From Allacma fusca (Eukaryota; Arthropoda; Collembola; Symphypleona; Sminthuridae), in the NCBI GenBank assembly GCA_947179485.1, contig OX359245.1:37559067-37623066 (forward strand): 64,000 nucleotides of DNA, written 5' to 3'. Of the stretch, positions 7,115 to 62,565 are shown in pieces. Numbering within the stretch: position 1 is the stretch's first letter; each line of letters opens with the position of its first letter. The notes below the pieces were generated by a model. The model ran no database searches. It saw nothing but the letters and a program-made list of their open reading frames with translations, and was not told the origin of the DNA. A program made the translations under genes and the position numbers.

Positions 7115-9730
7115 TGCTTAATTGTGCACGGAACATCTGGAGAACTGATTCCGGGAAGTGGGAAGGATCCAGGCGCGTCGTATCAAACGAGAGAACTTTC
7201 GTTGAAATCCCTCTGCCTTGAACCACGACAGGTCAAGAATCCAATTTCAGCCAGGTATTCTGGCTGGTCTGATAAATTAAAGAGCATCCTACATGATCTT
7301 TAATTTGGAATATTTTGTTGTGTTCGTGCAAGTTTTTAATTTTGAAGGTTGGAAGTTTATAAACAGCATAGAGTCTGGCTATAAAGCTGGCTTCCTTTGC
7401 TTAGGAATTGATATACATGCGTAATGTATTCCTTTAACTTTAATGCCACCTACTTTGTTTTTGCAGATATTGCGGAAACATACCGAATGTCGTTCAGTAA
7501 GTAATAGAAGATGATTTTGGAGATACATAGATACAAGCAGTAATGAAACAGCAATATCCAACGGCTTATTTTCATTCTGTTGTCATTTTTACTTAGAATT
7601 TTATATTGCTGAATTTGCTTCAATAACCTCTATTTCAAAATATGAAGAGGTGCGTGTAACCACTCGTAATCATTTAGTGCGCAAATATTCCACCCCTTTT
7701 GATAGTAATTCTCTCTTGACGTCAGCACTAAAGTAAAACAAAAATCCGTAAAGCTTTTTTCCACACCTTCCATAATATTTTTTTCCTGCTTATTGTTGGA
7801 TTCAAATTTTCAGGAATGGCCCTTTATTGTAAGTTATTTAGTCACTAGTAATTACGTTTCGAGTAGCGTCATAAATTGTCCGTTCATTTAACTTTTCGTA
7901 CGTCTGTGCTGTGAACGCTTTGCAGCCGATTGTGATTTCAATATAAGAAAATGTTATTGACCCCACGAAATCCCTGGATTTTAAGTTAATTATTATTATA
8001 CAACTACCAAATTATGTAGTATTACGCCATGTGTTCCCACGTGATAGTAACTGTACAAATTAAAGCCAATTATACTTCCAACAGATGTAATTATGAATAA
8101 CTATAATTGTATAGTTTAACTGCCACTTGATTTGCTTTTGTAAGTGATTCGATATTCAAGTCTGCCTCTGTTAACCAGTATACTATTTGAATTATGACAT
8201 TGAACCCTGTAGGACTCACTTAACCTGTTATTCTGTTGTTTCAACATTTTAAGTGTTTTTCATGTTTTGAGTTTTACATATAAAACACCCGAAAGAATCT
8301 GATATCGTAGGACATGTAACCAATCCCATTATTCATTACTAAATTAGTTGATTTTAAATTAATCTTCCTCCGACTTTATCACCCAGTTAAGTTCCGCGTG
8401 CGGAACATTGTCTTTCCTCTTCATTCAAAATATTTTATGTTTTTGTTATTTAAAAATTCTTAAGGGTCTGTCACATACTATCAATTACATCTCCGTTAAG
8501 ACGCTCGTGACAGGTTCTGTCTCGCCAAATGAGTCTAATCCCAAACAATGGACACTCAAATCCAATTCTAGAAACGTGCAATATTTTATTATTTAAAGTA
8601 AAAAATTGCATAATTAACATTCCCAATCGATTATTTCCTGTATTTACCAATTTATTATAACTAATTTCTACGGGTACAGAGATTTATTTTGGAAATTATG
8701 GAACTTCCATAAATTCTATTTTTGAAAATTGACTTGAACATAATGAAAGTATGTTCATATTGAGCAGTTCGTTTTTTAAGCCTCTTTCACTTACGAAAGG
8801 AAAAATAGTTATCCCAAATATTTTATTTTTACAACAGATCTAAGCGGAGGCTCAGACATCACAGCATCCAATCTTCCGGGTTTGACATTCTACAATTCAA
8901 CGGTTTTTATAGAATTATACTATTTTATTCACATCTCAGATACTGAAAGATTCAGAAAGTAAGTACAGCATTTCAAAATAAATGAAATTTTTAACCCCTA
9001 TTTTTTATAAAATGCTTTATTCTATGCAGCATTAAATTTATTATTATTACATTCTTCTGTAAGGAGTGCTGATGTTTTCAAATCAATTCTTTAACAATTA
9101 AGTTTCCTACTTGAAATCAATCAAAGCATTTCAAATCTTTTACAAATGTTACTAAAATTACTTAGGGAGCGTTCACAAATGACGTCATCCAAAATACTGG
9201 TTTTTAGGCACCCAGTCACCCACTTGTCATCAGACATCATCATGTGATGAAACGACGCACCCACCCCATGGAATGACGTCATCATCACCAGGGTTGCACA
9301 ATTGAAAATGCCCTGGGTTTTATGCCTGCCTACCTAAAAATTCCCTAAAAATGCCCTGAAAATGTCTTAATTTGAAAATGCCTGGCATTTTGGGCATTTT
9401 CGGCAAGTAAGCAAGCCGAAGCAGGTTGATTCAAACTACCAAAACTGTTAACGGTTAAGGAACAAAATCGTTGGTAACATTCGTCGGTTGATGACATCAT
9501 CATTTTGTCAAATCCACCCTACCACTGCGTCATCAACATCATCATCTCCCGCTAGCACCCACCCACTAATTTGATGACGTCATTTGTGAACGCTCCCTTA
9601 TACAGTAGAACAGAGACGTCGACGAGCTGAATCTGTACCGGGAAGACGACAGGCTTCCCGAGCGTCCTCTGGCACTGTCCGTCAGCCAATCAGAAGATTA
9701 GCAGTTCCTCGGAATCGCCCAGGCCCATAG
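7115..9730 (+). pseudogene. Locus a: relic of the micro-exon secreted-protein family
   Basis: Only pieces remain. A fragment of leader exon E1 (7115-7254) lacks the start codon and most of the signal peptide, and carries a 4-base insertion near 7150. A clean 30-nt micro-exon (P4 position, 7467-7496, peptide IAETYRMSF) has good splice sites. The P5 position near 8140 has lost its acceptor (AAG instead of CAG). A 54-nt-type exon (P7, from 8838; SGGSDITASNLPGL) has lost its donor. The terminal exon (9609-9730) is fully open: an Arg-rich tail of 39 residues and TAG. A MITE (9175-9597) lies directly before the terminal acceptor. P2, P3 and P6 are absent. With no start codon the locus cannot make a secreted protein alone, though its 3' exons could still be spliced from an upstream transcript. 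Confidence 0.7.
9175..9597. mobile_element. PIF/Harbinger-like MITE, copy 2
   Basis: It has the same inverted repeats as the copy at 5666-6083 (GGGAGCGTTCACAAAT), flanked by TTA at 9172-9174 and 9598-9600, in the opposite orientation. It sits in the last intron of locus a and ends only 11 bases before the terminal-exon acceptor, so the MITE end now supplies the upstream part of the 3' splice region. Confidence 0.8.
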
Positions 9731-10834
9731 GGCAGGTACTGTATTTCAACCAAAACAGAGAATTTCAATTCCTCGCCTTGTTCTGCAGTTCCTCAAATTT
9801 CATTACAAATTATTATATTTAATTATGTGTATGTGTAATTATACACAGGAATGAATTCAAATCCCAGTCCCAATGCTCTAATATAATTAGTCCTGCGCAT
9901 TATTCCTTACATTACAAAATTAAGCTCTGTATTTCCTGGAGTACTTTATAACACTTTAATTTGTACGGCCATTTATCAATCCTGGTGAAAACTGATTCGT
10001 TGAATACACTGCACTGAGATTGTAAATTCCAACGAAATTAAATTTGTTACGTTTCCTTATTTGTCCCGATACTTCGGCGTCACTGCCACACTATACGGTG
10101 TATAAACATAATTAGGATCATCAAGGTTCCAGAAACATGAGACGAAAATTTTTAAATAAATGCATCTCTAAGAAATATTTCTAACCTTCATTACGTTTAG
10201 GGAGGTTCATATCAGTTTCCACTTTAAGCATAATCTTTGCCGCACTATCGTTCTGAAGCGTCAGGGGGAAAGTAAAACTGAGACAATGAAGAAAGCTTCC
10301 AGGGTTTGATATGGCTCGGGTTTTATTTTTGTTTCTAAATTCCAATATAATTTCCAATCAAAATAGGTAAAGGTACATTATATAAATTGCTTACTTTGAG
10401 AACATACTAAGAGACACGTACCAATCAAACTGTATGCCAACAGAAAATGTCTTAACTTAATTTTACAGCAATTTATTTAAGATTGAGAATTTCGAAAATT
10501 TTGTTACTCCAAGGTTTTTCTGTGTAGCATTTCCATATTTTCAGTTGGTTTAAATTCAGGGTCTATCAAGTCAATTTGGTTATCAATAGGTGCGAGATAC
10601 GATTCTCCCAAGCTAAAGCCCGTGCATCTTCCTCAAAGCAATGCTAAAAAGTTCTGCTTTATTTGTAAGATTTGTGGTTTCAGGAATTCAGCTCCAGTTA
10701 GGAATTATAATTCGACTGGAGTAGTTCAATTGTAGCTTCAGTTACGCTTAATTTTGAATTAGTGGTATAGAATAGGAAATGTATCTTTGCAGCTTTTATT
10801 TTCAAAATTAAATTTTTAGTAGTAACCAGTTAGA
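9731..10834. other. Intergenic spacer between loci a and b
   Basis: It holds the conserved 3' flank of locus a (9731-9960), the block starting near 9990 that all spacers share, the TATA-like block at 10377-10388, and the 5' flank of locus b from 10590. A presumed 3' splice site (TTTTTAG, about 10815-10821) precedes the leader ATG, so a 5'-UTR intron is likely. No coding exon is seen. Confidence 0.55.
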
Positions 10835-12044
10835 ATGAAACTCAGTAGCTTTGTTTTGGCCTGCTTGGCTGTAATTGTATACTAAACATCTGGAGAACTG
10901 ATTCCAGGAAGGATCCAGGAGCCTCGTGTCAAACGAGAAAACGTCCTCAATGTTGGAAGTTCCACTGCCTTGGACCACGCCGGATCAGGAATCCAAATGG
11001 ACAGACTTCAGCCTGGTAGTTATTTTCCAGTTGACTCATAATTTAAAGGACATTCCAAACGATCATTAATTTTGAAGGATTTTTTTGCGCTGGTAGAATA
11101 TTTGAGTCCAGGCTGTCGGTTTATAAATGGTTTGGTTTAGTATACACTTTAGGAGAGTAAATGAGTACACAGTAGAATCTCCTTGAAGGTTTACAAGAAA
11201 GTAGTTTTCCTTATAAATGAATTTTATGGATCTTAAACCTCCATTCATGTATTAATTAATACAAACAGCTTATGACGAATAGTTTAAAAAATACAAAAAT
11301 ATGTTGTCCCTTTTGAATCCCCTGTAACAGGGTTTTACTCTGCATAGTGCATAGGTATATACCTATACTACATATTATTTCTGTGCATGTAACACAGTGC
11401 CCCATTTCAGAAACAATATTTGGCTAGTGTTCCCAACTTTTCCAATTTTCAAGTCTCAATTTATACACAAAGTTAAAATACTCTAAAATGTTTTAGCTAC
11501 TTCAATGATAAGTAATGAATGACTGCATTTATCTTTATATTATGACAGGTAACTATAAATTAGGTTGGGAACGGGGATGGATTTAAGAATAATGTGCACA
11601 TGTCTCAATGTGCCACAAATACACGTGTCTTTCTGTTCTGTGACTTAAATTGTCAGGTTTCAAATTAATTTTGTCGTTTTGTGTCTAGGTCGATATGTTC
11701 GTCAGGCCGGATCCCGCAGTAAGTTTGGTTCTTTGACCACCAATTGCTAGTATTTTTATTTTTAAAATGACGAGATAAGTACGCGTTAATTCAGTATATA
11801 GTAAGATAGGTACTTTATATTAGTATTACTCCATTCGGAACTGTAACAATAACTTGTTGCAATTTAGTCAAGTGTTGACTCAGTCATATGTAACTATAGG
11901 TGCAACGTTTTATGCAATTCGTAGTCATTTTGAATTTAACCGCATTTCCTTTTTCACTTTGGAATTACAACAACGTTTTTGTAATCAAGGGTATTCGGAT
12001 GTAGACTTTGTGCTGGAGGAAATTACTCGACTATCGCGTACAAA

Positions 12045-12231
12045 TCCAGGTACGGGTTCAAGTACTTTTGAATTTATATCCCGAACTCGTACTTTGATTT
12101 AAGTACTTGAACGTACTCCTACTCGCTCTGATACTCGTTAAAAATACATATACTGAAGTTCGAGTACGGGAACGGATGCTGGACCGACGAGTACGAGTAC
12201 CAACTCCAGTATCTACTCGAACTCATGAGGA
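12045..12231. repeat. Degenerate GTAC/GAGTAC-rich fragment, probably a hAT end
   Basis: Self-similar runs of ACGGGTTC, GTACTTGA and CGAGTACGAGTACC are followed by AACTCATGAGGAGCT. That end resembles the ends of the hAT-like elements at 55934 and 57075. It lies in an intron of locus b. No clear target duplication is visible. Confidence 0.35.
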
Positions 12232-13014
12232 GCTACCAACTTCTCAATGGCCCATTTTTTTAAATTTTTATTTTTAATTAAAATTTGTACTCACTGAATT
12301 CCCCTCAACGGTCTCTACTTCCAATTACGAAGGCGTGCGTGTAATCACCTGTAATAATTTAGTTATCAAATATTCCACCCCTTTTGATAGTAATTACTTG
12401 GACCGAATCAAAAGCACGGGAAAGTTTTTTTCTGCACCTTCAATAATACGTTTCCCTGTGTAGATTCAAAATTTCAGCAAGGCCATAGAATTTAATCCCC
12501 TTTGTTTCCGCGGACGTCATTTTTTATTTTCCCTAACAGGGAAGACGTTAACAATTCCCAACAAAAATCCCTGTAAAAATAAAAATCAACAATTTAAAAA
12601 GCCCGGGTTATCAAGCAAGGTCTGTAAATTTGAAAATCTCTGCAGACAAAAAAGACTTCCCATTGAAAATTTCCCTGCTGAAAGATTGTTGATAACAGTA
12701 AGAGGAGAATTTTAGTGATTTTATTCCACTGTTGCGTTGATTTGGTTGGGATTCAAAATCAGTCCAACATGGGATACATAATTGCAACAAGTAAGTTATT
12801 AAAGCGCAATACAAAATTTCCAAACAGGGATATCCCGGATTGACGCTGAGATTGTAGGAATTGTTTAGAAACTTTATTGAAACCAATTAAGATTTGAAAT
12901 TCTCATTTTCAAAAATCCCATATTTTGATAGCAATATATAGATTTGTTTAACTTTAATGCTGTTTACTTTTATTTTTCAGGTAGTCTTCCTTCACATTCT
13001 CCAGGGATTGGTAA

Positions 13015-14648
13015 GGGAGCGGACACAAATGATGTCATGCAAAATATATGCTTTTTATGACTCACTGACTAAGCAATCATTCACCGTCATATCCAGTAAT
13101 GACTGACTGTATATGACATCATTTCTATGTACTTACGTAATGGTAGGTAAGACGAAGTTGGGGTTCTACGGGGACGGGAGCCAATATTCAAAAAATTTAA
13201 TCGTTTGCAAATGTATGCGCCATCGTTGGCCGAGACTGTTTTTTTAAAACGGTCATCCGTGAAAGTAACCATTTTATGAAACACGTTAATAGGACCCATC
13301 AGATGTAAAATTGGATGAAAAAAATCATCGCTACGCGATAGTTTGAGGCCTCACGTAGGATGGCGTCAGCCACCGTAGTCAAAGTAGGATAAATTTTAGG
13401 TTTTTTCCAAATTTCAAAATGTTTGTCAAAAAAACTATTGGGCCGATTTCATCCACATAGACAGTAACCATTACTTTTTACATATATAAGCAATATTCAC
13501 AAAACGATTCATTCAAATTGATTCAGTAGTTTTAGATATAATTAAGTCATTTGACATAAAGTCCAAAATTTCAAGAATTTTTTTTCTAAAAGACTATCCG
13601 ACCGATTTCAACCAAATACGAAGTCAGCCTTACTTTTGATACAAGTAATGTCCATAAAAAATTCATTGAAATCGGTTCAGTAGTTTTTGCGTAATCAAAA
13701 GAATGACTCACGGTTGCTACTTGATGACAATCAAGTTGCGGACAAGGCTATTTTACTAGGGGCCTGACACCACCCTAAAAAACCGAAAAAACTCGAAAAC
13801 AACAATAATTTATTATAGCTATACCAATTCGAATATGAAAAGATGGGCTATCTCAATTATATTGTCTAATAAATTAGATACTACATTCTTGATTTTTTTT
13901 CGCCTTGTAGAATCAAAATTTCGGATTTTATTGAAAAATCACATGCACATATTTGAAACTATGGAATTATTTTTTACTGTCGGCAGATGCAAATATGCAC
14001 TTTTAAAAATATTTAAACTCAAGTTTCCAAAAAGTGCATATTTGCGTCTGCCGGCAGTCAAATCGGGGAAAATCCGAAACGGGTAATTTATATACATATC
14101 TATGTCAGGCGTTAGCCAGCATGCAAGCATTGCTTGCTCGTCGCTGTAGTAGACGAGGAGAGGTTTCTGCGAACGTAAATACACGGGCAACGCTTTCGAT
14201 GAACACTGAAAGCCCTATCACGCTCCATTCGTTGGGACCGTGCCGCAGCTCAACTAGCCCCTAATTTTTTTTTGAATAATTTAGGATCTTGGTTGATTGT
14301 AGCTCAATAATATTTGGCCTCAATATTAGGGAGGCTATTTAAAATTTATGTACATTACATGTGAATAGCTGAAACAAATACTTCACTATGGAAATGACAG
14401 TTTAAAAAACAGATTCAACTAGTATTTAAATTATATGGTTGTATTAAGTATTAAAGCAGTAACTATTTTTTAAAATGAACCTACACATGTGTGTTTGAGA
14501 GTAAGAATAATGTGAGGACGTCAAAGATGCCCTAAAATGAATGACGTCAGTTTGCCGTAAGAAGACTGACTCAGTCTGTCATTCTGCGTCATGCAATCGA
14601 GTGACTGACGGACTGTCTTAACAGATGACATCATTTGTGTCCGCTCCC
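13015..14648. mobile_element. Harbinger-like non-autonomous element with nested insertion
   Basis: The inverted repeats GGGAGCGGACACAAATGATGTCAT (13015) and their complement (to 14648) are related to, but distinct from, the MITEs at 5666 and 9175. The flanks are TAA and TGA, compatible with a mutated TWA duplication. A further element with ends TAGGGGC/GCCCCTA may be nested at about 13757-14263. An internal inverted pair surrounds GCAAATATGCACTTTT near 13985-14050. The insertion begins 4 bases into the donor of the 12981-13010 micro-exon and leaves GTAAGG. The reading frames inside look non-coding. Confidence 0.65.
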
Positions 14649-14980
14649 TGAGTATAGTAGAGAGAGGTTGAAGTGCTTCAAGAAGTAACGCTAAGCTTAA
14701 GTCCCCGACGACTCATTTTTATTGCGTTGTTATTTTGAATTGTACATTTTTATTCACTTAATTTTACTCAAAAATCTCTACTTGTCATTACGAAGAGGTG
14801 CGTGTTACCACTGGTAATAATTTAATTTTTAAACATTCCGCCTGTTTTGATAGTAATTTTCATTCGACGTCATCCCTCCAGTAAATCAGAAGTACGGAAA
14901 GTTTTCTTTCGGTACCTTCCATAATATTTGTTTTCCTGCTTACAATCATATTTTCAGCCAGTTCCTAGGCTGCAATATCT

Positions 14981-15962
14981 TAAGGTTCTCAACGGATCGG
15001 ATATATCCGAACGGATACGGATCGGATACGGATACGGATAGGATAAAACTGAGGATTATCCGATCCGATATTTATCCGAACGGATCGGCTATGCCATTCC
15101 CATCCGAAAAAAATCACGGATAGGATCGGATACTACTACATAAACTAGCCGAACGGATCGGATGGCGACTTTTTGTTTTACGGATAATCCGACGGATATC
15201 CGAGGATATCCGCGGATAAACGAATTTTTGAAAGCACGACGACCAATCAAACAAATGCTATCTGCTGCAATCACCGACAGGACATTAGTTTGGCGATTTG
15301 GCAAAATCTTTTATGCTTTTTTCTGTTCATGCAGCTTTTGTACCAAAGCTAGAACCGAACCTCACGAATATAAACATGTCTTCAAGTATTTATGTTTTGA
15401 GCCGAAATTCAGACACATTTAGAAATTCAGCTGCTTATTCTAGTTACCTGTTCTTATGGGCTTTAAATTGCTAATACTTTCGAGTAAGTTAATTTTTGAG
15501 GATATCTGATATGCGAAAAAAAGAACTATTAATTCTTAAATTGTTTATATTAAATGTTTTGCCAAAAAAACATTCTTGTCGTTTCTTCTGTCCTTACAAT
15601 TCGTTATAAGCTAACAGTAATTATATTATATATAAAAACTAAAATAACTCTAAACTAAAATAAAAATAAAAAATAACTAAAACCCAAACTCTAGGAGTAA
15701 TTTCAGTTTCTACAATTGATTCGGATATCCGCAGAGAAGACCGGATATCCGCGGATAGGATCGGATAGCTCCTTTTTGTATCCGACGGCTTCGGATAGGA
15801 TAAACATCTCATCCGAAAAATTACGGATAAGCTTCGGATAAGATTATTTTTAATCCGATGGAACCGGATAGGATCGGATATGCTTCAGTTTTATCGGTCA
15901 AAATTCGGATCGGATAGGATACGGATAGGATGAGGGAATTATCCTATCCGTTGAGAACCTTA
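14981..15962. mobile_element. hAT-like non-autonomous element built of CGGATA repeats
   Basis: The inverted repeats TAAGGTTCTCAACGGAT are flanked by an exact 8-bp duplication, CAATATCT (14973-14980 and 15963-15970), diagnostic of hAT-type transposition. Both ends contain dense degenerate repeats of CGGATA/TATCCG; the centre is AT-rich with no transposase. It lies in the P4-P5 intron of locus b. Confidence 0.85.
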
Positions 15963-18092
15963 CAATATCTGTTGTGACCTGTTTAGGTCGTAGTTTTTTT
16001 GGTTTTATTATAAGCCTTTTAATTACTAGTTATTACTTTTCAAGTAGCGTCATAGATTGGCCGTTGCTGCAACTTTTCGTACGAATGTCATCTGAATCTC
16101 ACATAATTATTGTCTCAAAGTAACCAAATTGTGGCGTATTACATTTTTCCCACGGGGTAGTAATTGGCTAGTCTGACGTCAATTATATTGCCTGCAGATT
16201 TAATTATGAATCACTTCAATTGTGTAAATTAAATGTTAAAGGCAACTTACTTTATTTTTACAGGTATTGGTAGCGTGTTTGGGACACTTGGTAAGTAATA
16301 CGTTGAATTATTAAACTGAATCATGCAGTTTTCGCTATCTTGCTTCTTTGTTGTTTCGTGTGTTAAAGTAATAAGGGTAGTTAAAATGTTAGGAGTAAGC
16401 CATGCTCTGAATTTTACTCAAAACACCTTAAATCATCTGAGGTCGATGGGAATGTGACCATTCACAGTCATTACGAAACTTGTTGCTTTTAAATTAATTT
16501 TCCTCCGAATTTATCCCTCATTTAAGCTCCGCATGAGGAAAATTCTCTTTCCTCGTCTTTCTTAGTATTTTATGTTATTGTTAATTTGAGTTTCTTAGAG
16601 GTGTCACATACTTTAAATTTCATCTCTGTTAGAAATCTCAAAAATAGTTTGGTCTCGTCAAATGAGTCTAATCCCAAAATATAGAACATTCAAGTGAATT
16701 TTAGAAATATGCAATATTTTATTTTTTGGAATCAAAAAATTGTATGATTAACATTTCCCATAGATGATTTCGTTTATTTACTAATTAGCATTAATTTCTA
16801 CATGCACTGAGATGTATTTTGGAAATTCGGGAATTTTCATAAATTCTAAAAAAAAGCAATAAATTCTTATAATTGTAAGTTGACTTAGTGTTAATTAACA
16901 TTATTTATTAATGAGTCTTTATCCACACAAATGTAAACTGATGATTTTGCTCATCTGTCACTTAACATAGGAAAAGATGAAAACATGTTCCAGATTTTGT
17001 CGATTGACATTTTCCCCCGCCGTCGTGTCTCAAAGGTAATTGTAAGTCTAGGAAAAACCGAGATGTAAATACTTTAATAGCGCCATTTGTTTCCGACCTG
17101 CAGAATTGTCACCTCAAAAACATTTCCTTAGCAGTAACATATTTTAAGAGGTGGAAAGAATTGGATGAAAAACGTTCAAATGATTTATGTATTATTATTG
17201 TGTTGCAGTTGTCGCAATTGCCCGGCAACGTATCCCGGGTAAGTTTTTATAAATAAATGTAATGAGTGTCTTTTTGCCAATGAATTCTTTTTACAAATTA
17301 TTTGGTACTTTCGAGATTCCCTGAAAATCCCATATTATTCATGGTTCCTAGAATGTTTTGTATCTAGAAAAGTTTTCAATGATTCCTGATGAATTTGTAC
17401 CTACAGAAATTTAGATTCTATTTAGCTGTAAATTGTTTTTTGGAATTTCGCCGATGGTCTTAATAAAGAGTTATTATAAAAATTATATTCAGTTCATATT
17501 ATGATTAACTAATTAAAATTTAAGTGCCATTTATTTTATTTTTGCAACAGATTTATCCCAGCTTCCGGATATGTCAGCACGTAAGCAATTCCACGGCTTT
17601 TATAGTACTTGTTTCTTTTGGTTAGATTATTACCTACAATTTTCACCTTCTTAGATTTTGAAAGTTCAAAATTTTTAATGCAATTTAAATGATTTGTCGT
17701 CCTATGCTTGTTAATTTATTTGTATTCCTTACAGCTTTTATTAATTATATGTGTCAATTAAGAAAACGAGATTTTGAGGTCAAAACATTTAAGTTTCCTA
17801 CTTGAAAAGGATTTCACACTGATTTTAAATTGATTGCATCACTTGAAACGTTTGTAATTTAAATCAGCCAAAGCATTTAATTTTATTCTGGTTGAAGAAT
17901 GAAGTTAAATAGTAAACTGAAATCCAGAACTTGTCCGTCTTGTTGCTTTCAAATGTTTTACAAATGTAATTTAAATCACTTATAGAACAGAGACGTCGAC
18001 GAGCTGAATATTTCCCAGGGCGACGACAGACTTCGCGAGCGCCCTCTAGCACTGTACGTCAGCCAATCAAAAGATCTCTCTGGCCCATATAG

Positions 18093-19098: not shown

Positions 19099-19550
19099 AT
19101 CTAAGCGGAGGTTCGGACATCATAGCATCCAATCTTCCGGGTTTGACATCACGTAAGCAACTCAACGGCTTTCATAGAACTAGATTATTCACATCTAAGA
19201 TATTCAAAGATTCAAAGAGTAAGTAGATACAGCATTTCAAAATAAATCCAGTGAATTTTTCAATAGTTTTTTTTATAAAATGCTTTATTCTATACATCAT
19301 CTATTAATTAAATTCTTCAGTAAGGAGTGCTGATATTTTCAAATCAATTCTTCAACAATTAAGTTTCCTACTTGAAATCAAGCCAAGCATTTCAAATCTT
19401 TTACAAATGTTTTTAAAATTAGTTCTAGAACAGAGACGTCGACGAGATGAATCTGTACTAGGGAGACGACAGGCTTCCCGAGGGCCCTCTGGCACTGTGC
19501 GTCAGCCAATCAGACGATTACCAGTTCCTCGGAGTCGCCCTGGCCCATAG
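19099..19550 (+). pseudogene. Locus c: orphan P7 and terminal exons of the family
   Basis: A 54-nt P7-type exon (19099-19152; LSGGSDIIASNLPGLTS, donor GTAAGC) is followed by an intact terminal exon (19429-19550) with 39 codons of Arg-rich tail (QRRRRDESVLGRRQASRG start) and TAG. Both splice sites are good and the phase is 1, as elsewhere. There is no leader, so the unit cannot start translation by itself. Because the phase matches, an upstream transcript from locus b could in principle splice into it. Confidence 0.65.
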
Positions 19551-19894: not shown

Positions 19895-20179
19895 ATGAAA
19901 CTCAGTAGTTTTGTTTTGTCCTGTTTGGCTGTAATTGTGAACGAAACATCTGGAGAACTGATTCCTGGAAGGATCCAGGCTCCTCGTGTCAAACGTGAGA
20001 GCGTCCTCAATGTTGGAAGTCCCACTACCTTGGACCATGCCGGATCAGGAATCCAAGTGGACAGACTTCAGCCAGATAGTTATTTTCCAATTGACTCATA
20101 ATTTAAAAGAAATTCCAAATGATCATTAATTTTAAAGGATTTTTTTGCGTTGGTAGAATATTTGAGTCCAGGCTGTATG

Positions 20180-20570
20180 CAGGGGTCGGAGTTTTGTAGG
20201 AAGACGGGAAGATTCTTCCCAACAAAAAAATATTTTTTGCAGGGAAAATCTCAAAGGGAAGGGATTTATTTTTACGAACAGGGATTTTTAAAATCGTTTA
20301 CCTTTTTTTTGGCAGAGATTTTCAAGTTTGTTGACGTGTTTCAGCTAAATTTGTTAAGCAAACAGGGATTTTTGACTTGATTGGCCTAATTTGGCAGGGA
20401 TTTCACGTCTTATAAGGGATTTTGTTTGCCAACAGGGATTTTGAAAATCATTGACCTTTATTTCAGCAGGGAGTTTTGAAATCGTTGAGGACCTACCAGC
20501 AGGGAAATAATAGTCAGCAGGGAAATTCAGAAGTGATCTTCCAGGGAGATTTACAAAAATCCGACCCCTA
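20180..20570. mobile_element. hAT-like MITE with internal CAGGGATTTT repeats
   Basis: The ends CAGGGGTCGGA and TCCGACCCCTA are flanked by an exact 8-bp duplication, GCTGTATG (20172-20179 and 20571-20578). The 391-bp interior is made of degenerate copies of a unit like CAGGGATTTTGAAATCGTTGA. It is non-coding. Confidence 0.85.
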
Positions 20571-21289
20571 GCTGTATGTTTATAAATGGTTTGATTCAGT
20601 ATAGAAGAGTAAATGAGTACACAGTAGAATCTCCTTGAAGGTTTACAAGAAAGTAAGATTTTGTTATAAATGAATTTTATGGATCCCAACCTTCATTCAT
20701 GTATTATTTAATACAAACAGCTTATGACGAATAGTTTTAAAAAACACTAAAATATGTCGTCCCTTTCGATTCCCCTGATACAGGTTTTTACTCTGCATAC
20801 TAATACATATTATTTCTGTGCATGTATCACAATGTCCCATCTCAGAAACAATATTTGGTTAGTGTTCCCAACTTTTTCAATTTCCAAGACTCAAAGTATA
20901 AACAGAAGTTAAAAGTATCTACTCTAAAATGTTTTAGCTACTTGAATGATAAGTATTGACTGCTCTCATGTATTTGTCTTGGAGAAACACCTTCTTTTCC
21001 CAATAACAAAGAGATGTTTGTAACCACTCGGAATAATTTAGTTTTCAAATATACCATTTCCTTTTAATAGTAATTCACTTTTGGGATCATCCCTCCAGTA
21101 AGTCACAAGTACGGAAAGTTGTCTTTCATACTTTCTACTTCATACGTATGTACATTCTAGAATGATTTTTTCCTACTTAGATTCAAATGTTTAGCTATCA
21201 TAGACTTGAATCTCTTGTGTATCCGGTAAATGAGGACATGACCTCTTTAAGTTGTAGAGACTCAACAATAGTGCAACGCATAGGTTTAT

Positions 21290-21453
21290 ACAGTCGAACC
21301 TGTACCTGAACCTTTACACAATTTCTCGGGTATAAAATATTGTACCCAGAAAGAGCCCAAAATTATTGGGTTCAAAATATATGCATCCATACTGACCCTG
21401 AATCTGGACCTGAACCCAAATACCCGGGTGCGACGTGAACCCATGCGATGCAC
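21290..21453. repeat. hAT-end fragment rich in GAACCTG/ACCCGGGT
   Basis: Self-similar ACCTGAACC and GGGT/ACCC motifs end in GAACCCATGCGATGCACTA, close to the right end of the hAT element at 57075 (CATGCGGGGCACTA). The left boundary and target duplication are not clear. It is non-coding and lies in an intron of locus d. Confidence 0.4.
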
Positions 21454-33916: not shown

Positions 33917-33919
33917 ATA

Positions 33920-33930
33920 TTTCCCTCCCC
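33920..33930 (-). promoter_or_regulatory. Polypurine tract for plus-strand priming
   Basis: On the element's coding strand the sequence just before the 3' LTR reads GGGGAGGGAAA followed by TAT, the expected place and composition for a polypurine tract. Confidence 0.75.
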
Positions 33931-35493: not shown

Positions 35494-35511
35494 ATCTGAG
35501 AAGTAGTATAA

Positions 35512-40119: not shown

Positions 40120-40127
40120 GGGACACC

Positions 40128-41039: not shown

Positions 41040-41448
41040 CTCGAAGGACCAAAAACAATTTAATTCGTTAAGTGTTATATACAAGGGAAATGATGCTCTA
41101 AACCATTACGGGTAACGTAGGTAGTGAATATGGGGCGAGTCTGGTACAGAAAATAAGTATGGAAAATTACGGTATCAATTGATGACTCGTAATGAAAAAT
41201 GTAAGTTGAATGATTATTTAATCGACCTGAGATTATTGATCGGGAAGTGGGGCGGAAATTACAACAGTGGGGGTATTTTCGGATAACGGTATCAAAATCA
41301 AGAAACATGAGGTGCTTGTTGTGAGAGGGTTTGGAATTGTTTGGCGACTGACACACTCTTAAATAAATTTGAAAAGATATTAATAATTAATTCAAATACG
41401 AGATAACCCTAATGAAATTAAATTGCCGGAAAAGATCGGCGCCTTATA

Positions 41449-42658: not shown

Positions 42659-43589
42659 CTAAAGAATCCCTTGAAGTAATTCTACGTGCTGTTGTATGAT
42701 ACATAAAGTTTTTTCATTGCACTATAAGGACACCATTCTTGTAATTCCATTAGAAATAATCGCATTTTGAAATGCAGTCCTAAAACACTGGAACTTTGAA
42801 CAAATCCTCAATTAATGAATTCGTGGTAGTTAAAATGTCTAACAAATTGTTACAATTATTTTTGGCAATAATTGCTTACTTTACATTATTTGGAATATTT
42901 TGAAAGTGATTTCTTCTTGAGATTCCCAAACTTCGAACGAATTCTTGAGATGTTTAATATCCATATTCAATACGTAAACCTTTCACTTGCCTTTCACTCA
43001 ACATGATAATTTTTACCACATAATTCCTCAACAGCTCCAGTCATTCCTTCGGATGTTTTAGCAGGTAATAGCAATTTGAATGCTTTTATAGAACGTTTTT
43101 ATTCAGACTATTAACTGAAATTTTTTCCGTCTCAGATATTGAACGATTCAAAAAACAAGTGTGATTTGAATGATTTTTGACCCCTATTTTTAAAAAATGT
43201 TTTATTCCATACACAATATAGTTTTTATTAATTAGATGCTTAATTGAGGAACGACGACATTTTAAAATAATTTTTTAAATATTTAAGTTTTCTACATGAA
43301 AAGGATTTCCAACTGACTAATTGTTGTAATTTAAATAAGGTTTTAATAGACACTCAATTCTTTTGTGATTAAAGGATGAAGTTAAACAGTAACATTTATT
43401 TCAGAATTTATTCAGCTGGTTAATTTGAAATGTTTTACAAATGTAATTAAAATTGTAGGCCGGAGACGTCGACGAAACGGAGTAACTATCATTAAGACGA
43501 CAGGCTTCCCGAGCGCCCTCTGGCACTGTACATCAGCCAATCAGAAGATCAGCAGCTTCGCGGAATTTTACTGGCCCAATTGGCATTAA

Positions 43590-47700: not shown

Positions 47701-50601
47701 AAGTTTTCTTGTACCAAATTCTAGAATAATTTTTGTCTGCTTAGATTCAAATTTCCAGCAATGTCACGGATTTGAATCTCTGGTGTTTCCGGTAAATGAG
47801 GACATGACGTCTTTAAGCTGTAGTTTTTTTTGTTTTAGTGTAGGCCTTTTAGTCACTAGTTACGTCGATTGGCCGTTGCTTTCCAACAGTCCGAGCTGTA
47901 AAAGTCGTGCTCCTGATTGTCGTGTCAGTCTCAGAATATTATTGTTCACACGTTCCATATTTAATATATAATTATATCTATTTAATTAGATGCACATAAA
48001 TAGTTATGCATTCATTTCGGAAAGCCAATCCTGAACTGTCTGCACCCAAGAGGGTTCTGATTTTCGTAAATATCCTTGTGACGTCATTTTTGCTTTTTCT
48101 TACCAGGGAAGACGCTGATTATTCCCAATGGGAATCCCGGCTGAAATAAAAATCCAAGTTGATCAAGAAAGGGAATAAATTTGAAAACCCCTGCTAACAA
48201 AATGACTGTCCCTTTCAATTCTAAAATTTCGCTCTAAACGTTTCCCCATGCGAAGAATCTTCCTTCGTGAAATCCGAATCCCGGATACCCCGAAATTTTA
48301 TGTAGCCCTACTTGAAGGATTTCACGAAAAGTAAGAGGAGAATTTCAGTCATTTTATTCCACTGTTGCTTTGATATAGCTGGGATTTATACCGTGACCCA
48401 CAAGGGATGCATAATTGCAACAGACAAGTCATTAATATTCAGCACGAGATTTTTGAACGCGTATTTCCCGGATTCCCGCTGAAATAGTAGGAATTGTTAA
48501 TCGACTTCTGATAAAGCCAATTATTGAAATTGAAAATGCTATTTCTAATTTTCATTCTTGGTTGAAGTTGCATTTCGCTTGCAGCCAAGTTGTATGGTAT
48601 TGTGAAATTTGTAAACGTGACAGTTTCTGGACATACTAAAATCAACTTAACTTTCAAAACATGCAATAATGAATCACTTTAATTATGTAACTTCAAGGTC
48701 ACTTACTTTGTTTTTCCAGATCATGCTGCCGCTCTAAGTCATCTGGGTAAGCAATATAACTAAACTTTGGCAATGAACCATGTAGGGTTGCATAACTTCC
48801 TATTCTGTTGTATCAATATTTGAAGTGTAATCCATGCTCTGAATTTTACTTAAAAAACCTCAAATAATCCGAGGTTGATGGGCAAATGGCCATCGTATTG
48901 GTTATGAAACTATGTATTTCCGTTCAAATTAATCTTCCTCCGAACATATTACTCAGTTAAGTTCCGCATGCAGGAGGTTGTCCTTCATCTTCTTTCGTAA
49001 TATTTTATGTCCTAGTTAATTACAAATTCTTACATGTGTCACATACTTTAAATCCCATCTCCGTTAAGTGGCTGGAGAAAAGTTTCAGTGGTCTAATCCC
49101 AAAAAATAACACTCAAATCCAATTTTAGAAATGTGCAATATTTTATTATTTAAAGCAACAAGTTTGTTATTATCTACTTGCACTAATTGTAAGATGTATT
49201 TCGGAAATTCTGGAACTTTTATAAATTCTTGAATTTGAATATTGACTTATTGCTAGTTGAAATTCTCTATCAATATATCTTTACGAACAGTTATAAACTC
49301 ATGTTTTCACTCCTTCTTTAACGTAACATGGAAAAAAAACTATTTCAGATTTTGTCTATTAACATTTTCCCATGCCATCGTGTCCCAGTCTGAAATGTAA
49401 GGCTAGAAAAATCGAGATTTAATTACTTTATGGGCCCCCATTAGTTTCCAACAGACACAATTGTCAACTCAAAAACATTTACACAAATGTAACATAATTA
49501 AAGGGTGTAAGAAATCTGATGAAAAGTGTTCAACAAATTTATGTGCTGTTTTTGTGTTGCAGATGACCCAATAGACCTGCGTAAGTCTTTTTAAATTACT
49601 CGTTCTGAGAATGTTTTTGCTCATGATTTTTTTCTAGTTGATACTTTCGATATTCTCTAAAAATCCCATTGTTCTTAGCTCCTATAAATTTTTGTACCTG
49701 GAAAAGTTTTCAAATCCCTGATACATTTGTACTAACTCCCTTTAGAAATTAGCTGTAAAATTTAAAAATTGAACCGACGGTCCTAATACTAATATATTAT
49801 AAAAATTAAATACAATGCATATTATGAATGAAAATGTCAATAATTAAAATCTGAATGCCATTTATTGTACACATTTCCTCAACAGGTCCACTCAATCCTT
49901 CGGAGGATTTAACAGGTAAAATCAATTTGACTGCTTTTATAGCACTTGACTATTTTATTCAGAATACTAGCTATGATTTTTACCCTCTCAGATGTTGAAT
50001 GATTCAAAAAACAAGTGTAATTTTATTTATTAGTTAAAGACGCGAAGTGAATTCGCAGCAACGTTGCGAGCTGTGACTCTTCGTCAGGCAAATGATATAA
50101 GTACTAGTATTAACATTCAATGCATTGCATATTACAATCAATAAAAATAAAAAATTTAAATTAATGATTTATCAATTTAAAAAAATATGACAATTCTTAA
50201 GCTTTAGCCATTTAACAAATATTTTTGCCTAATATAACCACGGGATTGCCACACCTGTCAAAATTATCGCCTGAGGCTTCCATATTTCTTCAATATGCAA
50301 ATTTGATGTTTAGTCCAAGCAATGCAATAGATTTGAAGCAATGAATCATTCGGTTTGAAATCTTACTTAATCGTCTCTTGATGCGTGATCCATTAGGATT
50401 AAGTTAAATAGCAATACAAATCCAGAATTCATCCATTTTGTTATCTTGAAAAACTTAAAAAATTTAATTAAACTTGCAGGTCGGAGACGTCGACGAACGA
50501 AATCAATCCCAGGGAGACGACAGGCTTCCCGAACTCCCTCTGGCACTGTACGTCAGCCAATCAGAAGATCAGCAACTCCTCGGAATCTCCTTGGCATATA
50601 G
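44722..50601 (+). CDS. Locus g: intact eight-exon secreted micro-exon family protein (154 aa)
   Basis: The exons are 44722-44902 (leader), 45655-45684, 47112-47138, 47505-47534, 48720-48746, 49563-49580, 49886-49915 and 50480-50601. Every intron is GT-AG and phase 1; the 465 nt make one frame. This is the most complete gene and defines the family plan. The leader gives a signal peptide (MQLSSFVVGCFAVIVHATSG), then GELTPGRIQAPHVKRESV with a Lys-Arg site. The middle is GRYVRQMTFE, TGFAIMDL, AQLKANGLY, HAAALSHL, DPIDL (an 18-nt exon) and PLNPSEDLT. The tail starts GRRRRRTKSIPGRRQ and has further RR and PR pairs. The protein is small, soluble and cationic at its C-terminus, and has no known domain. 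I infer a secreted, possibly processed effector-type or peptide-precursor protein; the actual role is unknown. Confidence 0.82.
50034..50395. mobile_element. Insertion in the last intron of locus g, possibly a Penelope-like remnant
   Basis: The intron matches loci f and i on either side, but this piece is extra. On the minus strand it contains CTGACGAAGAGTCACAGC followed by CGCAACGTT, reminiscent of the hammerhead-like motif in Penelope-like element ends. No coding frame remains and the boundaries are approximate. Confidence 0.3.
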
Positions 50602-52007: not shown

Positions 52008-55000
52008 ATGAAACTCAATAGTTTTATTTTGTCCTGCTTGGCTGTAATTGTGCACGGAACATCTGGAGAATTGATTCCGGGAAGGATCCTGGCTCCTCGT
52101 GTCAAACGTGAGAGCGTCCAAAATGTTCAAAGTTCCGCTTCCTTGGACCACGACAGGCCAGGAATCCAACTTCTGCCAGGTATTTTGAATAGCTGATAAA
52201 TGAAAGCGAATCCCACATGATCTTTAATTCAGAATTTTTTGAGTTGGTACAAGTTTTGTAGGTTGCAAGTTTATAAACTGGATTGATTTAGTATGAACTT
52301 TAAAAGAGTAAAAAGAGAGGTTCTACTGCTTACACTCAACCTCCTTAGAGGTTTATAAGAAGGTTTTTGCTATAAAGGAATATAGCACGTTTTATATCTG
52401 TTTTACTCTGCGTACGTCATTTCTGGACGTGTATCACGGTGCCCCATCTGTGAAACAAGATTTGGTTGGTGTCCCTAACTTTAGTTTTTCAGACTCACAA
52501 TCAATTTATAAACAAAACTTAAAAGTATACTCTGAAATTTGTATCTATTTAAGGATAATTTCGCACATGTCTCAATGTGCCCCAAAACAATTAGCTAGTG
52601 ACAACGCATGCGAATTTAGTCTGGTGCTGTTCTGTTGTGTAACTTAAATTGTCGGGTTTCAAATTAATTGTGTCCTTTGTTTTGTATCCAGCTCGATATG
52701 TTCGTCAGGCCGGGTCCGGCAGTAAGTTTGCTTTTTTGTCATCTGCATTTTAAAAGGAGTTCTCCCTGACGAAATGACTATACCATCTGACATTATTTTC
52801 CAGTTTCAAGAACATTTCATTCTACATGAATCAGATAATTATAGCGGTGCTTAGTATCCTCCTTAGGATTCCTAGTTATCTATGTTGTAGCGTTCATTGA
52901 ACAGATTCAAGGGGAAAGTTGACTTACTTATTTCACATATTTACTTTACAAGATTACTAAACATGGATATTCCTAATTGAGCAAAGACTGATGCAATTAT
53001 TAATCATTGCATTCACAAAAAGTGTACAACACATGGTGTAGGATTCTTAATATTATCTAAGCTCCACTAAAATATTTGAGCATGAGTAGAAGCAGTTCGA
53101 TAATCCCTTCAAGAAGGGTTTCAAGCCCCCGGCGTTAGCATTGCAAAGCAAAGGTAAATGAGTATAATATTGTTTAATTACTTTTTTCCTACGTGACAGA
53201 CTTCGGACAGACTGAATTCAATCGTGCATTTAACGGAAATTACTCAATTGTATTCATTAATATTTATGTAATTTACTTTGTTTTTTGCAGATGCACCCCT
53301 TTACGAACTTACTGGTGAGTTTAAGGACCAGAACGGCATAGACTTGAAAGCTGTAACGCTGGCTTCCTTTCCATACCTGATCTTGATCCTGTTCTGTCAA
53401 TAATTGAAGTATAAACTTCCAAGAATTACATTTAATTCAAAGCTTCCGAAATAGTTTAATGTCGATGGAATGTTACCATTCCCAGTGGTTTTTTAATTGA
53501 TATTTGCAATAGGTTGTTTCTTTTAAAGGTGGAAAGGATTGGAGGAAAAACATTCAAATGGTTTATTTGTTGTTTCTGCGTGGATGATGTGTTGCCAGAA
53601 CCAGTCCCAGCCCAAAATAAGTTTGTAGTAATTATGTGTAGCTTATACCTTTTTGCTTAGAAATTCTATTCTACAAATCATCTGGTGTTTTTGATATCAT
53701 CTGAAAATCCTTTTGTTCATGGTTCCCCGATATTTAAATTTTACATAAAGTTTTTAAAAGTTTTCAAATTTCTTATGCATTTTTACTATCTCCCTTTGAA
53801 AATTTAGCCTCTCTTTAGCTGCAACATTTTTTCTTCGGAATTGAGTCAATGGTCCTAACAATGATTTATTATAGAAATTATAAAAATAAAGATGCATATC
53901 GTATATGAAAATGTTAATTAAAATTTGATTGCCATTTATTTTATTTTTACAGCAGTTCCAAGCGGTGGTTCGGATATCACAGTACCCAATGTTCCCGGGT
54001 TGACATCACGTAAGCAATTCAACGGTTTTTGTAGAACTTGAGTATTTTATTTCCACCTTTAGACAAAATTTTCCCCATCTTAGATTTTGAAAGATTCAAA
54101 AAGCAAGTGAAATTTTCTAATTTACCCAGGAACTGAGATTTACAGTAGTATGGAAATTCCGGAACTTTCATAAATTCTTGTATTTGAAAATTGACTTATT
54201 ACTAAATAAAATTCTTTATCATTAAATCCATCAGAATATAATGAAAGTATGTTCATGTGAAACAATTGTGTTTTTACTCCTCTTTCACTTAACATGGGAA
54301 AAGTAACTCTTCCTGATATTGTCTACTAACATTTCTCCTGCAATCGTGTCCTAGAGGTAAATGTAAATCCATGAGAAAACACCATTTAAATGCATTACCA
54401 ACACTGCTTGTTTCTAATCCAGACAGCAGTTGCAGTTGGCTCAAAATCGTTTTCATAATAGTAGCACAATTAAAGGGTTGGAGGAATTGGAGGAAAATAT
54501 TCAAATGATTTATTTACTATTTCTGTGCATAGCTGAAGCATTGACAGGAGCAGCCCCAGCCCAAAGTAAGTTTTGTATTAATTATGTGTATTGTGACTTG
54601 AGATTTTTTGATTGTACGTGGACAAGTTTTCAAATTCCGGCAAGATTTGTGCAAACTGCCATTGAAAATGTAACATCTGTTTAGTTTTATCATTTTCCCC
54701 TCGGAATTGAGAAGATAATCCTAATAAGGATTTATTATAAAAATTACAATTTATAATAATGCATACTATGAATGAAAATGTTAATCCACATTTGATTACC
54801 ATTTATTTTATTTTTACAGCAGTTCCAAGCGGTGGTTCAAATATCTTAGCACCTAATGTTCCGGGTTTGACATCACGTAAGTATTTTTTTCTCCAGCAAT
54901 TAAAAAGAATGTTTCATTCCATTCCTTTTTTTATTAATTACATTCTTCAGTAAGGAATGCCGATATTTTCAAATCCATTTTTAAACCATTAAGTTTGCTA

Positions 55001-55179
55001 CTTGAAATCAAGCTAAGCATTTCAAATGTTTAACAAAGTAATTAAAATTACTTATAGAACGGAGTCGTCGACGAGCTGAATCTCTCTCAGGGATACGACC
55101 GACTTCCCAAACGCCCTCTGGTCCTGCACGTCAGCCAATCAGAAGATCAGCAGCTCCTCGGAATCTCGCTGGCCCATAG
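52008..55179 (+). CDS. Locus h: intact secreted micro-exon family protein (162 aa)
   Basis: The exons are 52008-52179 (leader), 52692-52721, 53291-53314, 53956-54009, 54533-54565, 54823-54876 and 55058-55179. All introns are phase 1; the 489 nt form one frame. The leader carries a signal peptide and VKRESVQNV. Then come ARYVRQAGSG, APLYELT, an 18-residue PSGGSDITVPNVPGLTS module, EALTGAAPAQ, a second 18-residue module and the Arg-rich tail. It is the duplicate of locus e, with one fewer 54-nt exon. The 33-nt exon at 53585-53617 is dead (acceptor and donor lost). Both 54-nt exons have tandem CAGCAG acceptors, so optional one-codon variation is possible. The function is unknown, as for the family. 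Confidence 0.75.
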
Positions 55180-57330: not shown

Positions 57331-58638
57331 ATGAAACTCAGTAGCTTGGTTTTGACCTGCTTGACTGTAATTGTGAACGGAACATCTGGAAAATTGATTC
57401 CGGCAATGATCTAGGCTCCTCATGTCAAACGAGAGGACGTCCACAATGTTCGAAGTCATAAGCCATTGGACCACGCCGGTCCACAAATCCAAACAGGCAG
57501 ACTTCAGCCGGGTAATTATTGGCCAATCAGTGCTCGGCACGGGTGCGGGTAATACTCGGGTAAACGGGTGCGGGTACGGGTATGGGTACTACCCGGGTAC
57601 CGATTTTATGTACCCGAAAAATTCCGGGTACTACCCGGGTGCACTTTGGTCGGCTCAAAATTTTGGGTACGGATACGGGTATGGGTTTGGGTACAAAGAT
57701 TTCAAAATGGGAATATACCCACCGGGTTCGAGTTCGAGCCGAAAAGTGGAATTTACACCGGGTTTTTGTTTTGATTCGAGTCGAGCCCAACTATTTGTTA
57801 CCGATAGAAACACTATTCCCAAACAAGATGTTCAATATCCATATTCAATATTTAATCCTTTCACTTGCCTTTCACTCAACATGCCAATATTTACCACATA
57901 TTTCCATAACAGTTCCAGTCAATCCTTCGGATATTTTAGCACGTAAAAGCAATTTGAATGATTTTATAGAACGTTTTTATTCAGATTATTAACTGAAATT
58001 TTTTCCGTCTCAGATATTGAACGATACAAAAAACAAGTGTGATTTTAATGATTTTTGACTACTGTTTTAAAAAAATGCTTTATTCCTTACACAATACAGT
58101 ATTATTAATTAGATGCTTAACTTGAGGAACGACAACATTTTTTAAATCATTTTTTAAATATTTAAGTTTTATGAATTGTATGAAAAGAATTTACAACTGA
58201 CTAATTGTTGTAATTTAAATAAGGTTTTAATAGACACTCAATTTATTTGTGATTAAAGGATAAAGTTTAACAGTAACATTTATTTCAGAATTTATTCAGC
58301 TGGTTAATTTGAAATGTTTTACAAATCTAATTAAAATTTTAGGCCGGAGACGTCGACGAACGGAGTCACTATCATTGAGACGACAGGCTTCCCGAGCGCC
58401 CTCTGGCACTGTGCATCAGCCAATTGAAAGATCAGCAGCTCCTCGAAATTTTACTGGACCATTGGGCATTAAGCCCCTCAGCAAAAATAGAAGGACTGCA
58501 ATTCCTCGCCTTGTTCTACAGTGCCTCAAAATTCTTCTTTACAAATTATTCTCTCTTACAATTATTGATGTGTGTAATTGCTCAGAAGAGTTAATTGAAA
58601 TCCTAGTCTCCATGCTCTACTATAAGCATTGCGCATAA
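57331..58638 (+). pseudogene. Locus i: family pseudogene with premature stop and lost terminal stop
   Basis: The leader (57331-57511) has an in-frame TAG at codon 28 (57412-57414) where paralogues have CAG. P2 to P6 are deleted. A hAT-like fragment (57535-57800) is followed directly by intron sequence upstream of P7 57913-57942 (PVNPSDILA, good splice sites). The terminal exon from 58343 is open (RRRRRTESLSLRRQASRA) but the usual TAG has become TTG, so the frame runs on to TAA at 58636-58638, about 97 codons. It is the partner of broken locus f in the duplicated block. Confidence 0.7.
57535..57800. mobile_element. hAT-like fragment of GGGTACGGGT repeats
   Basis: It begins CAGTGCTCGGCACGGG, a hAT-type end, and contains dense GGGTACCCGGGT-type repeats. 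It ends near GATAGAAACACTATTCCC without a clear matching end. The overlapping open frames arise from the repeat and are not genes. Confidence 0.5.
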
Positions 58639-60721: not shown

Positions 60722-62565
60722 ATGAATCTCAGTAGCTTTGTCTTGGCCTCCTTGACTGTAATTGTGCACGGAACATCAGGAGAATTGATTCCGGGAAGGA
60801 TCAAGGCTTCTCGTGTCAAACGTGAGAGCGTCCAAAATGTTCGAAGTCCCAATCCCTTGGAACACGCCGGGCCAGAAATGCAAATGATCAGGCATCAACC
60901 AGGTAGTTATTTGCCAAGGGCCTCATAATTCAAAGGACATTCCAAATTACCATTAATTCTGAAGGATTATTTTGAGTTAGTAGAATATTTGAGTCCAGGC
61001 TGTTAGTTTATAACTGCTTTGGTTTAAATGGCACTTCAGGAGAGTACATGAGTAAGGAGTAGAATCTCCTGGAAGGTTTATAAGAAAATTGGATTTCAAA
61101 ATTAATTTTGTCCTTTGTTTTGTATCTAGTTCGATATGTTCGTGACGTCACACTACCCAGTAAGTTTTATTCTTTTACCACTCATTGATGGTTTTTTTAT
61201 TTTTAAAACCACGAGATAAGTCCTGGTTAATTCGGTGTGTATCTGCAACCTACTTCAGTGCGCCTTTCATACAAATGTCATCCTTATAGAAATCCGTGTA
61301 AAACACGGTAAGAATTGTTCATACCTGTGTTTTCGAACACTTTAATATTATCCTTATAGACAACCAGAATTACTAGGGCCAGTTAGTTATTGCTCTTATA
61401 GAGATAATTACTGTAACTGCAAGGTTACAGTCTGCGTTTGGCAGTACACCTGTAATTAAGGCAACTGAATAATTGAGTTTCCTATTTTGCTCATTCTTGC
61501 ATTTGCATACACGAGCCGTGAAAAACTATTTTTCTAAATCTTGGTGATTCTGAGATGTCTTTCGAGCTGCAACTTGCATTTCAAAAGGAATTTTTTCTTC
61601 AAGAAATGACTATAGCATTCAAAATTATTTTTCAGTTTCAAGTAATTTCTTTCTGCATGTACATTGTGCCTGGATGAAAGTAAATTTGATTGAAATTATT
61701 TATTCAAAAATCAATTAGGTATTTCAGTTGGGCAATTGGTTTAAATATGCATAAGTACAACATATACAAATACAGTACGCTTTTATGATCTGTGTGCCAT
61801 TACATGTGGGATATAAAGACTCATTGTCAGATTTGTTACTTGTTCATTTTCCAATAACTATGCTATTGAAACTTCAGAAAATGCAAATCTGTGTCTGAAA
61901 TTTACGCATACACGAAGGTTCATCCAAATCTGCATGATTAAAAAACTGGCACATCTACAAATAGCAAAGAATCCCTTGAAGTAAATCTTTGTGCTTTGAG
62001 TTCAGTTTGGTTTACAAGTTTTTTCCCTGCATTTTAATGACACGATTTACTTCCCAGGCCTGAACTCACGATATTAAATCAGAGAACGTTAGCAGTCTGT
62101 AATGTGCACTTGTAATCCACAGCTGACTCAAGCCTACTAAGAAACTTTAAGAAGTTGACCAAAAATTGTATTTCGAGCTTTATAAGCATAATTAGGGAAA
62201 AGAAGGATTCACAATAGCAAAGCATAACGGAAATTTCTCCGACATTAAAATTGTGTATACAAAATTTGTTTGTAGTGTACAACACGTGGTTTATAGTAAT
62301 TATTATAATCTGAGCAGGATTAAAATACTATTTAGTATGAGTCGAACAGTTCGATAATCATTCCAAGAAGATTTCCTAACGCCCAGCATTTGCATTACGA
62401 GGAGAAGCCAAATGAGTTTAAAATTGTTCAATTAAAATTTTCCTACGTGACAAATACTGGTCTAAATAAAGTTAATCATGCGTCTAACATAAATTACTCA
62501 ATATATTTACTTAACTTTAATACCACTCTTTTTGTTTGCAGTTACGGATCTAGGTTCAGACAAAG
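60722..62565 (+). CDS. Locus j: 5' part of a secreted micro-exon family gene
   Basis: Three exons are intact: leader 60722-60902, P2 61130-61159 and P3 62542-62565, all with phase-1 introns. The leader gives a signal peptide starting MNLSSFVLASLTVIVHGTSG, then GELIPGRIKASRVKRESV and a variable end. P2 reads VRYVRDVTLP and P3 reads TDLGSDK, unrelated to the locus g peptide at the same position (TGFAIMDL) although the flanking introns align well. The next intron is interrupted at 62866 by a BEL/Pao element that runs off the window, so exons P4 to T, if present, lie outside. Confidence 0.7.

Follow-up and report, generated by a model that had tools for sequence, protein, structure and literature searches.

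Secreted protein families built from micro-exons are known above all from parasites and from insects that feed on plants; the family described here belongs to a free-living springtail, Allacma fusca, and forms a tandem array in the window, the whole stretch of 64,000 nucleotides that was analysed (C1:37559067-37623066). What is new in this family is that its variable exons are less alike than the introns flanking them and that synonymous sites look scrambled too, an unusually clear instance of cassette diversification. Schistosome micro-exon genes (MEGs) have a signal peptide and many tiny symmetric exons, and encode secreted proteins in which the mature part evolves faster than the signal peptide, according to the parts of two papers drawn on here (PMC4350168, PMC10526429), the first of which, in the same part, describes MEGs as appearing to be restricted to platyhelminths. 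Judged from the genes alone, the Allacma loci share with MEGs the signal-peptide-like leader and the small symmetric exons, the skipping of which would preserve the reading frame, but differ in their host, a free-living hexapod, and in a recurring cationic terminal exon.

In the bicycle genes of aphids, phylloxera and a scale insect, internal micro-exons start at codon position 2 (exon phase 2), and some members have a degenerate or no clear cysteine-tyrosine-cysteine (CYC) motif (PMC9168663). The internal exons of the three complete Allacma genes, loci D, F and G, likewise all start at codon position 2, and the signal sequence and the large, divergent nature of the family are also shared. In contrast, the CYC motif is absent from D, F and G, as is any cysteine beyond the signal peptide, the bicycle proteins being compared here by description. 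A published classifier that recognises bicycle genes by structure only, used with its own coefficients and a cutoff of 0.72 (PMC9168663), scores locus F at 0.87, D at 0.39 and G at 0.41. The comparison with MEGs and bicycle genes had been drawn in an earlier note on this DNA: the likeness of architecture stands (small symmetric exons and the bicycle exon phase), and for sequence no relation was seen, neither group having been compared directly; matches in a large protein database are to Allacma only, and it is by description that the family is set apart from MEGs.

Conotoxins have nonsynonymous (Dn) and synonymous (Ds) divergence both raised in the variable exon, in the part used of PMC3862624, and viperid three-finger toxins show a similar pattern of differing exon segments, termed accelerated segment switch in exons to alter targeting (ASSET), in the part used of PMC2474615. 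A constant leader, conserved introns and strongly differing exon segments are common to these toxins, compared by description, and to the Allacma genes, but in Allacma several separate micro-exon cassettes vary and D, F and G have no shared cysteine frame; nothing in the family indicates toxicity. We place the family in none of the MEGs, bicycle genes or toxins, and by analogy it would appear to work like them.

Variable micro-exons differ more than their flanking introns

To compare exons with their surroundings, 73 internal exons were taken together with 100-nt flanks, which were anchored at the exon borders with splice signals excluded, and 109 pairs with each flank at least 62% identical were kept. 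For pairs of variable exons whose flanks average 62-85% identity, 58 of 59 have an exon less similar than either flank. The exon encoding RYVR, passed through the same filter as a control, lies below both flanks in 0 of 9 pairs (and in 1 of 3 with flanks above 85%), the repeated 54-nt exons in 1 of 7 and the 33-nt exons in 0 of 1, and a 54-nt exon set against a variable exon does so in all 24 pairs. The pairs are not independent, since the same exons recur among them, and the flanks were chosen for likeness, a choice that applies equally to the RYVR control. A test confined to the window gives exon identities of 0.37-0.53 at variable slots Q and W of unrelated loci, with flanks at 0.50-0.78; shuffled exons give 0.43 (standard deviation 0.06). 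In the same test the exon falls below both flanks in 1/15 pairs for the leader, 1/15 for the RYVR exon and 0/6 for the terminal exon. An earlier flank comparison, in which the far flank ends were poorly placed, showed no deficit at slots V, P and R and is superseded. Thus, between most paralogues the variable micro-exons are near random while the introns remain alignable.

The substitutions within the cassettes were examined in 12 hand-picked same-length pairs with a mean flank identity of ~0.75 or more, copies from recent duplication excluded. Nonsynonymous differences per site (pN) amount to 0.56 and synonymous differences per site (pS) to 0.50, the ungapped alignment of the cassettes inflating pS, and differences occur at 61, 58 and 47 of the 101 first, second and third codon positions, respectively. 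Synonymous sites therefore look as scrambled as nonsynonymous sites. Besides amino-acid selection on point changes, the raised pS suggests that codons were inserted or deleted, or that replacement or local hypermutation took place, and we treat it as a lead to such a mechanism rather than as proof. The mechanism is open to test, since selection on point changes alone should keep synonymous sites near the intron rate.

Shuffling of cassettes among loci was considered as a source of the variation and rejected: among 1,225 pairs of 50 exons, with recent duplicates and alternative acceptors set aside, no shared run of 12 nt or longer is present. Shared runs of 8-9 nt are somewhat commoner than in shuffled sequences when pairs of duplicates and alternative acceptors are included.

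A head-to-tail array with a common exon plan

Nine leader copies are detected by BLAST in the window, all on the plus strand and head to tail, at the starts of the loci named here A-H and J (Table 1), the first (~7119) being partial; the earlier note, which gave the same orientation, counted ten loci. Its loci e, g and h, our D, F and G, are indeed complete single frames, with GT-AG at every junction and products of 180, 154 and 162 residues. Their several exons of 18-54 nt are as it described, and all internal exons are multiples of three. The models of D and G each omit one 33-nt exon-like stretch, which has the donor AT in D and has lost its acceptor in G. Locus J is intact as far as it can be followed, with three exons of intact structure in the window and none seen there beyond these.

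The leader exon encodes a signal-peptide-like stretch, as the earlier note had proposed, followed by a motif of the ELIPGRIQAPRVKRES type, which is strongly conserved. Six of the 9 loci carry the 30-nt RYVR exon, bordered by AG and GT, which was looked for but not found in C and H; its fifth residue, taken in that note as a constant Q, is variable (Q, H or D). Of the nine Arg-rich terminal exons in the window, two belong to remnants that precede loci B and C. Five of the nine loci (A, B, C, E and H) look broken, in different ways.

The proteins of D, F and G follow one order: a hydrophobic leader of ~20 residues, judged a signal peptide by hydropathy, then the conserved motif, a negatively charged middle (81-107 residues, net charge -1 to -5), an arginine run, and a 34-residue tail with a net charge of +4 to +8 and 12-18% proline. 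Cysteine is absent from the pro-region, middle and tail.

Table 1. Positions of the loci and their exons in the window; each locus begins at its leader copy
Feature	Position	Strand	Exons and remarks
Locus A leader remnant	7119..7250	+	No ATG, 5' truncated
Locus A micro-exon	7467..7496	+	30 nt, phase 1
Remnant terminal exon preceding locus B	9609..9730	+	
Locus B	10835..18092	+	Leader with in-frame TAA; RYVR 11689-11718; micro-exons 16264-16290, 17209-17238, 17551-17580; terminal from 17986
Remnant preceding locus C	19099..19550	+	54-nt exon 19099-19152 and terminal exon
Locus C	19895..23569	+	Leader open, GT donor lost; micro-exons 22055-22081, 22870-22896; terminal 23448-23569
Locus D	26102..29870	+	Intact, 180 aa; 26102-26273, 26779-26808, 27852-27875, 28517-28570, 28910-28963, 29221-29253, 29514-29567, 29749-29870
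Locus E	31075..43581	+	Broken; leader with 2-base insertion, internal long terminal repeat (LTR) element; RYVR 31492-31521; micro-exon 43035-43064; terminal exon out of register
Locus F	44722..50601	+	Intact, 154 aa; 44722-44902, 45655-45684, 47112-47138, 47505-47534, 48720-48746, 49563-49580, 49886-49915, 50480-50601
Locus G	52008..55179	+	Intact, 162 aa; 52008-52179, 52692-52721, 53291-53314, 53956-54009, 54533-54565, 54823-54876, 55058-55179
Locus H	57331..58464	+	Broken; TAG in leader, terminal exon without usual stop; micro-exon 57913-57942
Locus J	60722..62565	+	60722-60902, 61130-61159, 62542-62565

Micro-exons in the surrounding sequence and extent of the family

A splice-site model, for which D, F, G and J supplied 19 training exons, was applied blind to length. 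At the middle threshold, all seven plus-strand candidates in the window that were not used in training are multiples of three and open in phase 1, with one candidate on the minus strand; at two looser thresholds, 10/13 and 17/28 of the plus-strand candidates are multiples of three. A further 200 kb beyond the window yields 60 micro-exon candidates, every one of them on the plus strand; 51 have a length that is a multiple of three, 50 of these 51 are open, and at the strictest threshold 24/28 candidates are multiples of three. The candidates are not independent, some being alternative acceptors of one exon and the paralogues being related, and their bias in strand and length is far beyond chance.

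Searching the Allacma fusca genome with the leader of locus C, for which all counts are lower bounds, returns at least 54 matches, at least 48 of them at E<=1e-3; 44 of these 48 contain no stop. At least 42 fall within a cluster of ~640 kb (C1:37.118-37.761 Mb), with 39 in plus orientation, and matches outside it comprise three on the small contig C46 and one each at C1:33.6 Mb, C1:41.8 Mb and on C8. Within the 264 kb examined, 17 of 24 leader hits have an ATG and a phase-1 donor, one of the 17 being frame-shifted.

Two pairs among the matches listed have identical leaders, C1:37673378 and 37683217 (~10 kb apart) as well as 37616397 and 37633480 (~17 kb apart), and are probably recent duplications inside the cluster. 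Duplication is also seen within locus D, where exon-plus-intron units at 28077-29745 are repeated to give three copies of the 54-nt exon. The terminal exon of D and its surroundings are 98-100% identical to locus G, which suggests gene conversion or a recent duplication.

The clearest constraint is on the 16-residue leader motif that follows the signal peptide. In 15 of 24 leaders, after broken, shifted, donor-less and duplicate copies were dropped, the pooled pN/pS is 0.81 for the signal peptide, 0.26 for the motif and 0.84 for the remainder, and among the 10 core leaders the motif value is 0.17.

Relatives in public databases

Profile searches were run against a protein database of ~5.8 billion entries, with the ~7,990 candidates sharing most words scored per search, and matched Allacma fusca proteins only: three for a three-member profile and a fourth for a five-member profile (P0121-P0124). 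They were rejected as a sign of conservation between species, since the DNA of the window is Allacma too. The absence of a recognised domain, reported in the earlier note, holds for D, F and G in Pfam, NCBIfam and the PDB, none of which gave a credible match (best Pfam E 0.087). Together with the loci themselves, these null searches support its description of an unrecognised tandem micro-exon family with signal-peptide-like leaders. Rfam and bacterial-code tRNA scans were empty, and the family is not named in the literature searched on springtail micro-exons and secreted peptides (one paper collection).

P0124 joins the RYVR and terminal exons in a single annotated protein, with a middle unlike that of every window locus. 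P0122 contains an exon of the 54-nt type adjoining the terminal exon, and stretches of it are present in the cluster (for example 12/12 residues at C1 37683901). The leader is absent from all four proteins, and such genes may therefore escape standard gene prediction.

Interpretation and alternatives

The family and its architecture are almost certainly real. On balance, leaving the exact role aside, we think it probable from sequence that this is a family, so far confined to Allacma, of secreted and probably disordered preproproteins with diversifying cassettes, which suggests a fast-diversifying peptide system in a free-living animal. The protein would be secreted, and proprotein-convertase-like proteases would cleave it at its arginine run and, in members that have them, at KR or RR; the variable cassettes would be the parts that meet a changing partner. 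Gene number would be raised by tandem duplication and decay, and positive selection, most likely joined by local replacement or hypermutation, would rewrite the cassettes where they stand. Since every internal exon is a multiple of three and all share one phase, the reading frame would survive the loss, doubling or swapping of exons. With at least 48 leader matches in a free-living springtail, the family suggests that such an architecture emerges time and again wherever there is a need for secreted peptides to diversify. A bolder and more doubtful form of this proposal is a germline cassette-diversifying system, in which a constant frame (leader motif, RYVR exon and cationic tail) carries micro-exons of 6-18 codons that focused replacement or hypermutation, together with selection, rewrites in place, the introns serving as conserved borders, and which would provide a free-living arthropod with a heritable repertoire of variable secreted peptides.

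Several results weigh against parts of this interpretation. When flanks are more than 85% identical, the exon is below both flanks in only 3 of 6 variable pairs, and at the last variable slot, P, in only 1 of 6 pairs of the window-only test. A cassette pN/pS of ~1.1 with raised pS is by itself no proof of positive selection, and the lack of any common run of at least 12 nt is evidence against swapping in the sequence examined. The terminal exon, which the earlier note called constant, does recur and is recognisable cluster-wide, but is weakly constrained (pooled pN/pS 0.75 in 12 of 26 copies; 0.44-1.74 for single window pairs, locus B left out). The Lys-Arg site that the same note assigned to the leader is not a family feature, the position also being TL, RL, KL, TR or RR outside the window. 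As P0124 carries two cysteines in its middle, the family cannot be defined by a lack of cysteine; P0122 reads on into the neighbouring locus, reaching its RYVR exon, and so joins pieces of two loci, which indicates that public gene models may be faulty. The AlphaFold model of P0124 (mean predicted local distance difference test score, pLDDT, 53.5; predicted template modelling score, pTM, 0.19) weakly fits disorder, its alignment having four rows, from which the low pLDDT stems.

As to role, our best guess, and a tentative one, is an extracellular repertoire of defence or microbe-interaction peptides (gut, cuticle or haemolymph). The peptides might instead be secreted by the mouthparts and act on food organisms (plants, algae, fungi), in a functional parallel to aphid bicycle genes. 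The exon phase, the passing score of locus F, the signal-peptide-like leaders and the tandem, fast-diverging nature of the family are consistent with this, but D and G score under the cutoff of the classifier, whose training species was an aphid, D, F and G are without the CYC motif and, to our knowledge, springtails do not inject into plants in the aphid manner; we consider the mouthpart role unlikely. The salivary or venom glands to which the earlier note pointed find no support here. Reproductive proteins include many fast-evolving secreted families in tandem array, and components of the spermatophore, egg coat or female tract could diversify through sexual or parental-genome conflict. Such conflict would fit the paternal genome elimination of Allacma fusca, as given in the part used of PMC9630974, but the sequence contains no pointer to reproduction, and a reproductive role appears rather improbable.

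The cationic tail could also be the active part, as a proline/arginine-rich antimicrobial peptide (AMP) in the narrow sense that overlaps with the defence guess, with the anionic middle as a spacer. The charge and proline content of the tail, its place after the arginine run and the negative middle agree with this, but it is the middle that diversifies and not the tail, and the Collembola AMP genes surveyed, in the part used of PMC10051947, belong to five other families (diapausin, Alo, diptericin, defensin and cecropin). A relation of D, F and G to the families on that list was looked for through Pfam, which gave no credible family for them. We give the active-tail proposal little credence. 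That the array is decaying or silent, with its exons out of use, would agree with the five broken loci but hardly with the 44 of 48 stop-free leader matches, the 50 open frames among 51 three-fold candidates outside the window and the constrained leader motif, and seems very improbable.

Other features of the window

Two 54-nt exons of locus G are preceded by tandem acceptors 3 bases apart (53953-53956 and 54820-54823), which could lengthen or shorten the product by one residue. In 5 of 8 leaders an initiator-like TCAGTTA is present 96-97 bases upstream of the ATG, and AATAAA is found in like surroundings 331-346 bases past the end of the terminal exon in 4 of 9 copies; these may be ordinary promoter and polyadenylation parts. 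The LTR element within locus E (32702-42661) has two direct repeats of 1.2 kb and its longest frames on the minus strand; its repeats are 99.75% identical, so the insertion looks young.

A transposon-like stretch at 1300-5010 contains a frame of 566 codons, for which the best database match is an Allacma fusca protein (52% identity), and a Pfam scan of three frames from transposon regions matched no family. An aphid or other hemipteran as the source of the window was considered and rejected, this transposase pointing to Allacma. At 63476-64000 there is an open frame on the minus strand, which reads like, and may be, the end of a BEL/Pao polyprotein. Inverted copies of ~430 bases, 88% identical (5665-6084 and 9164-9598), flank most of locus A and may represent a small transposon.

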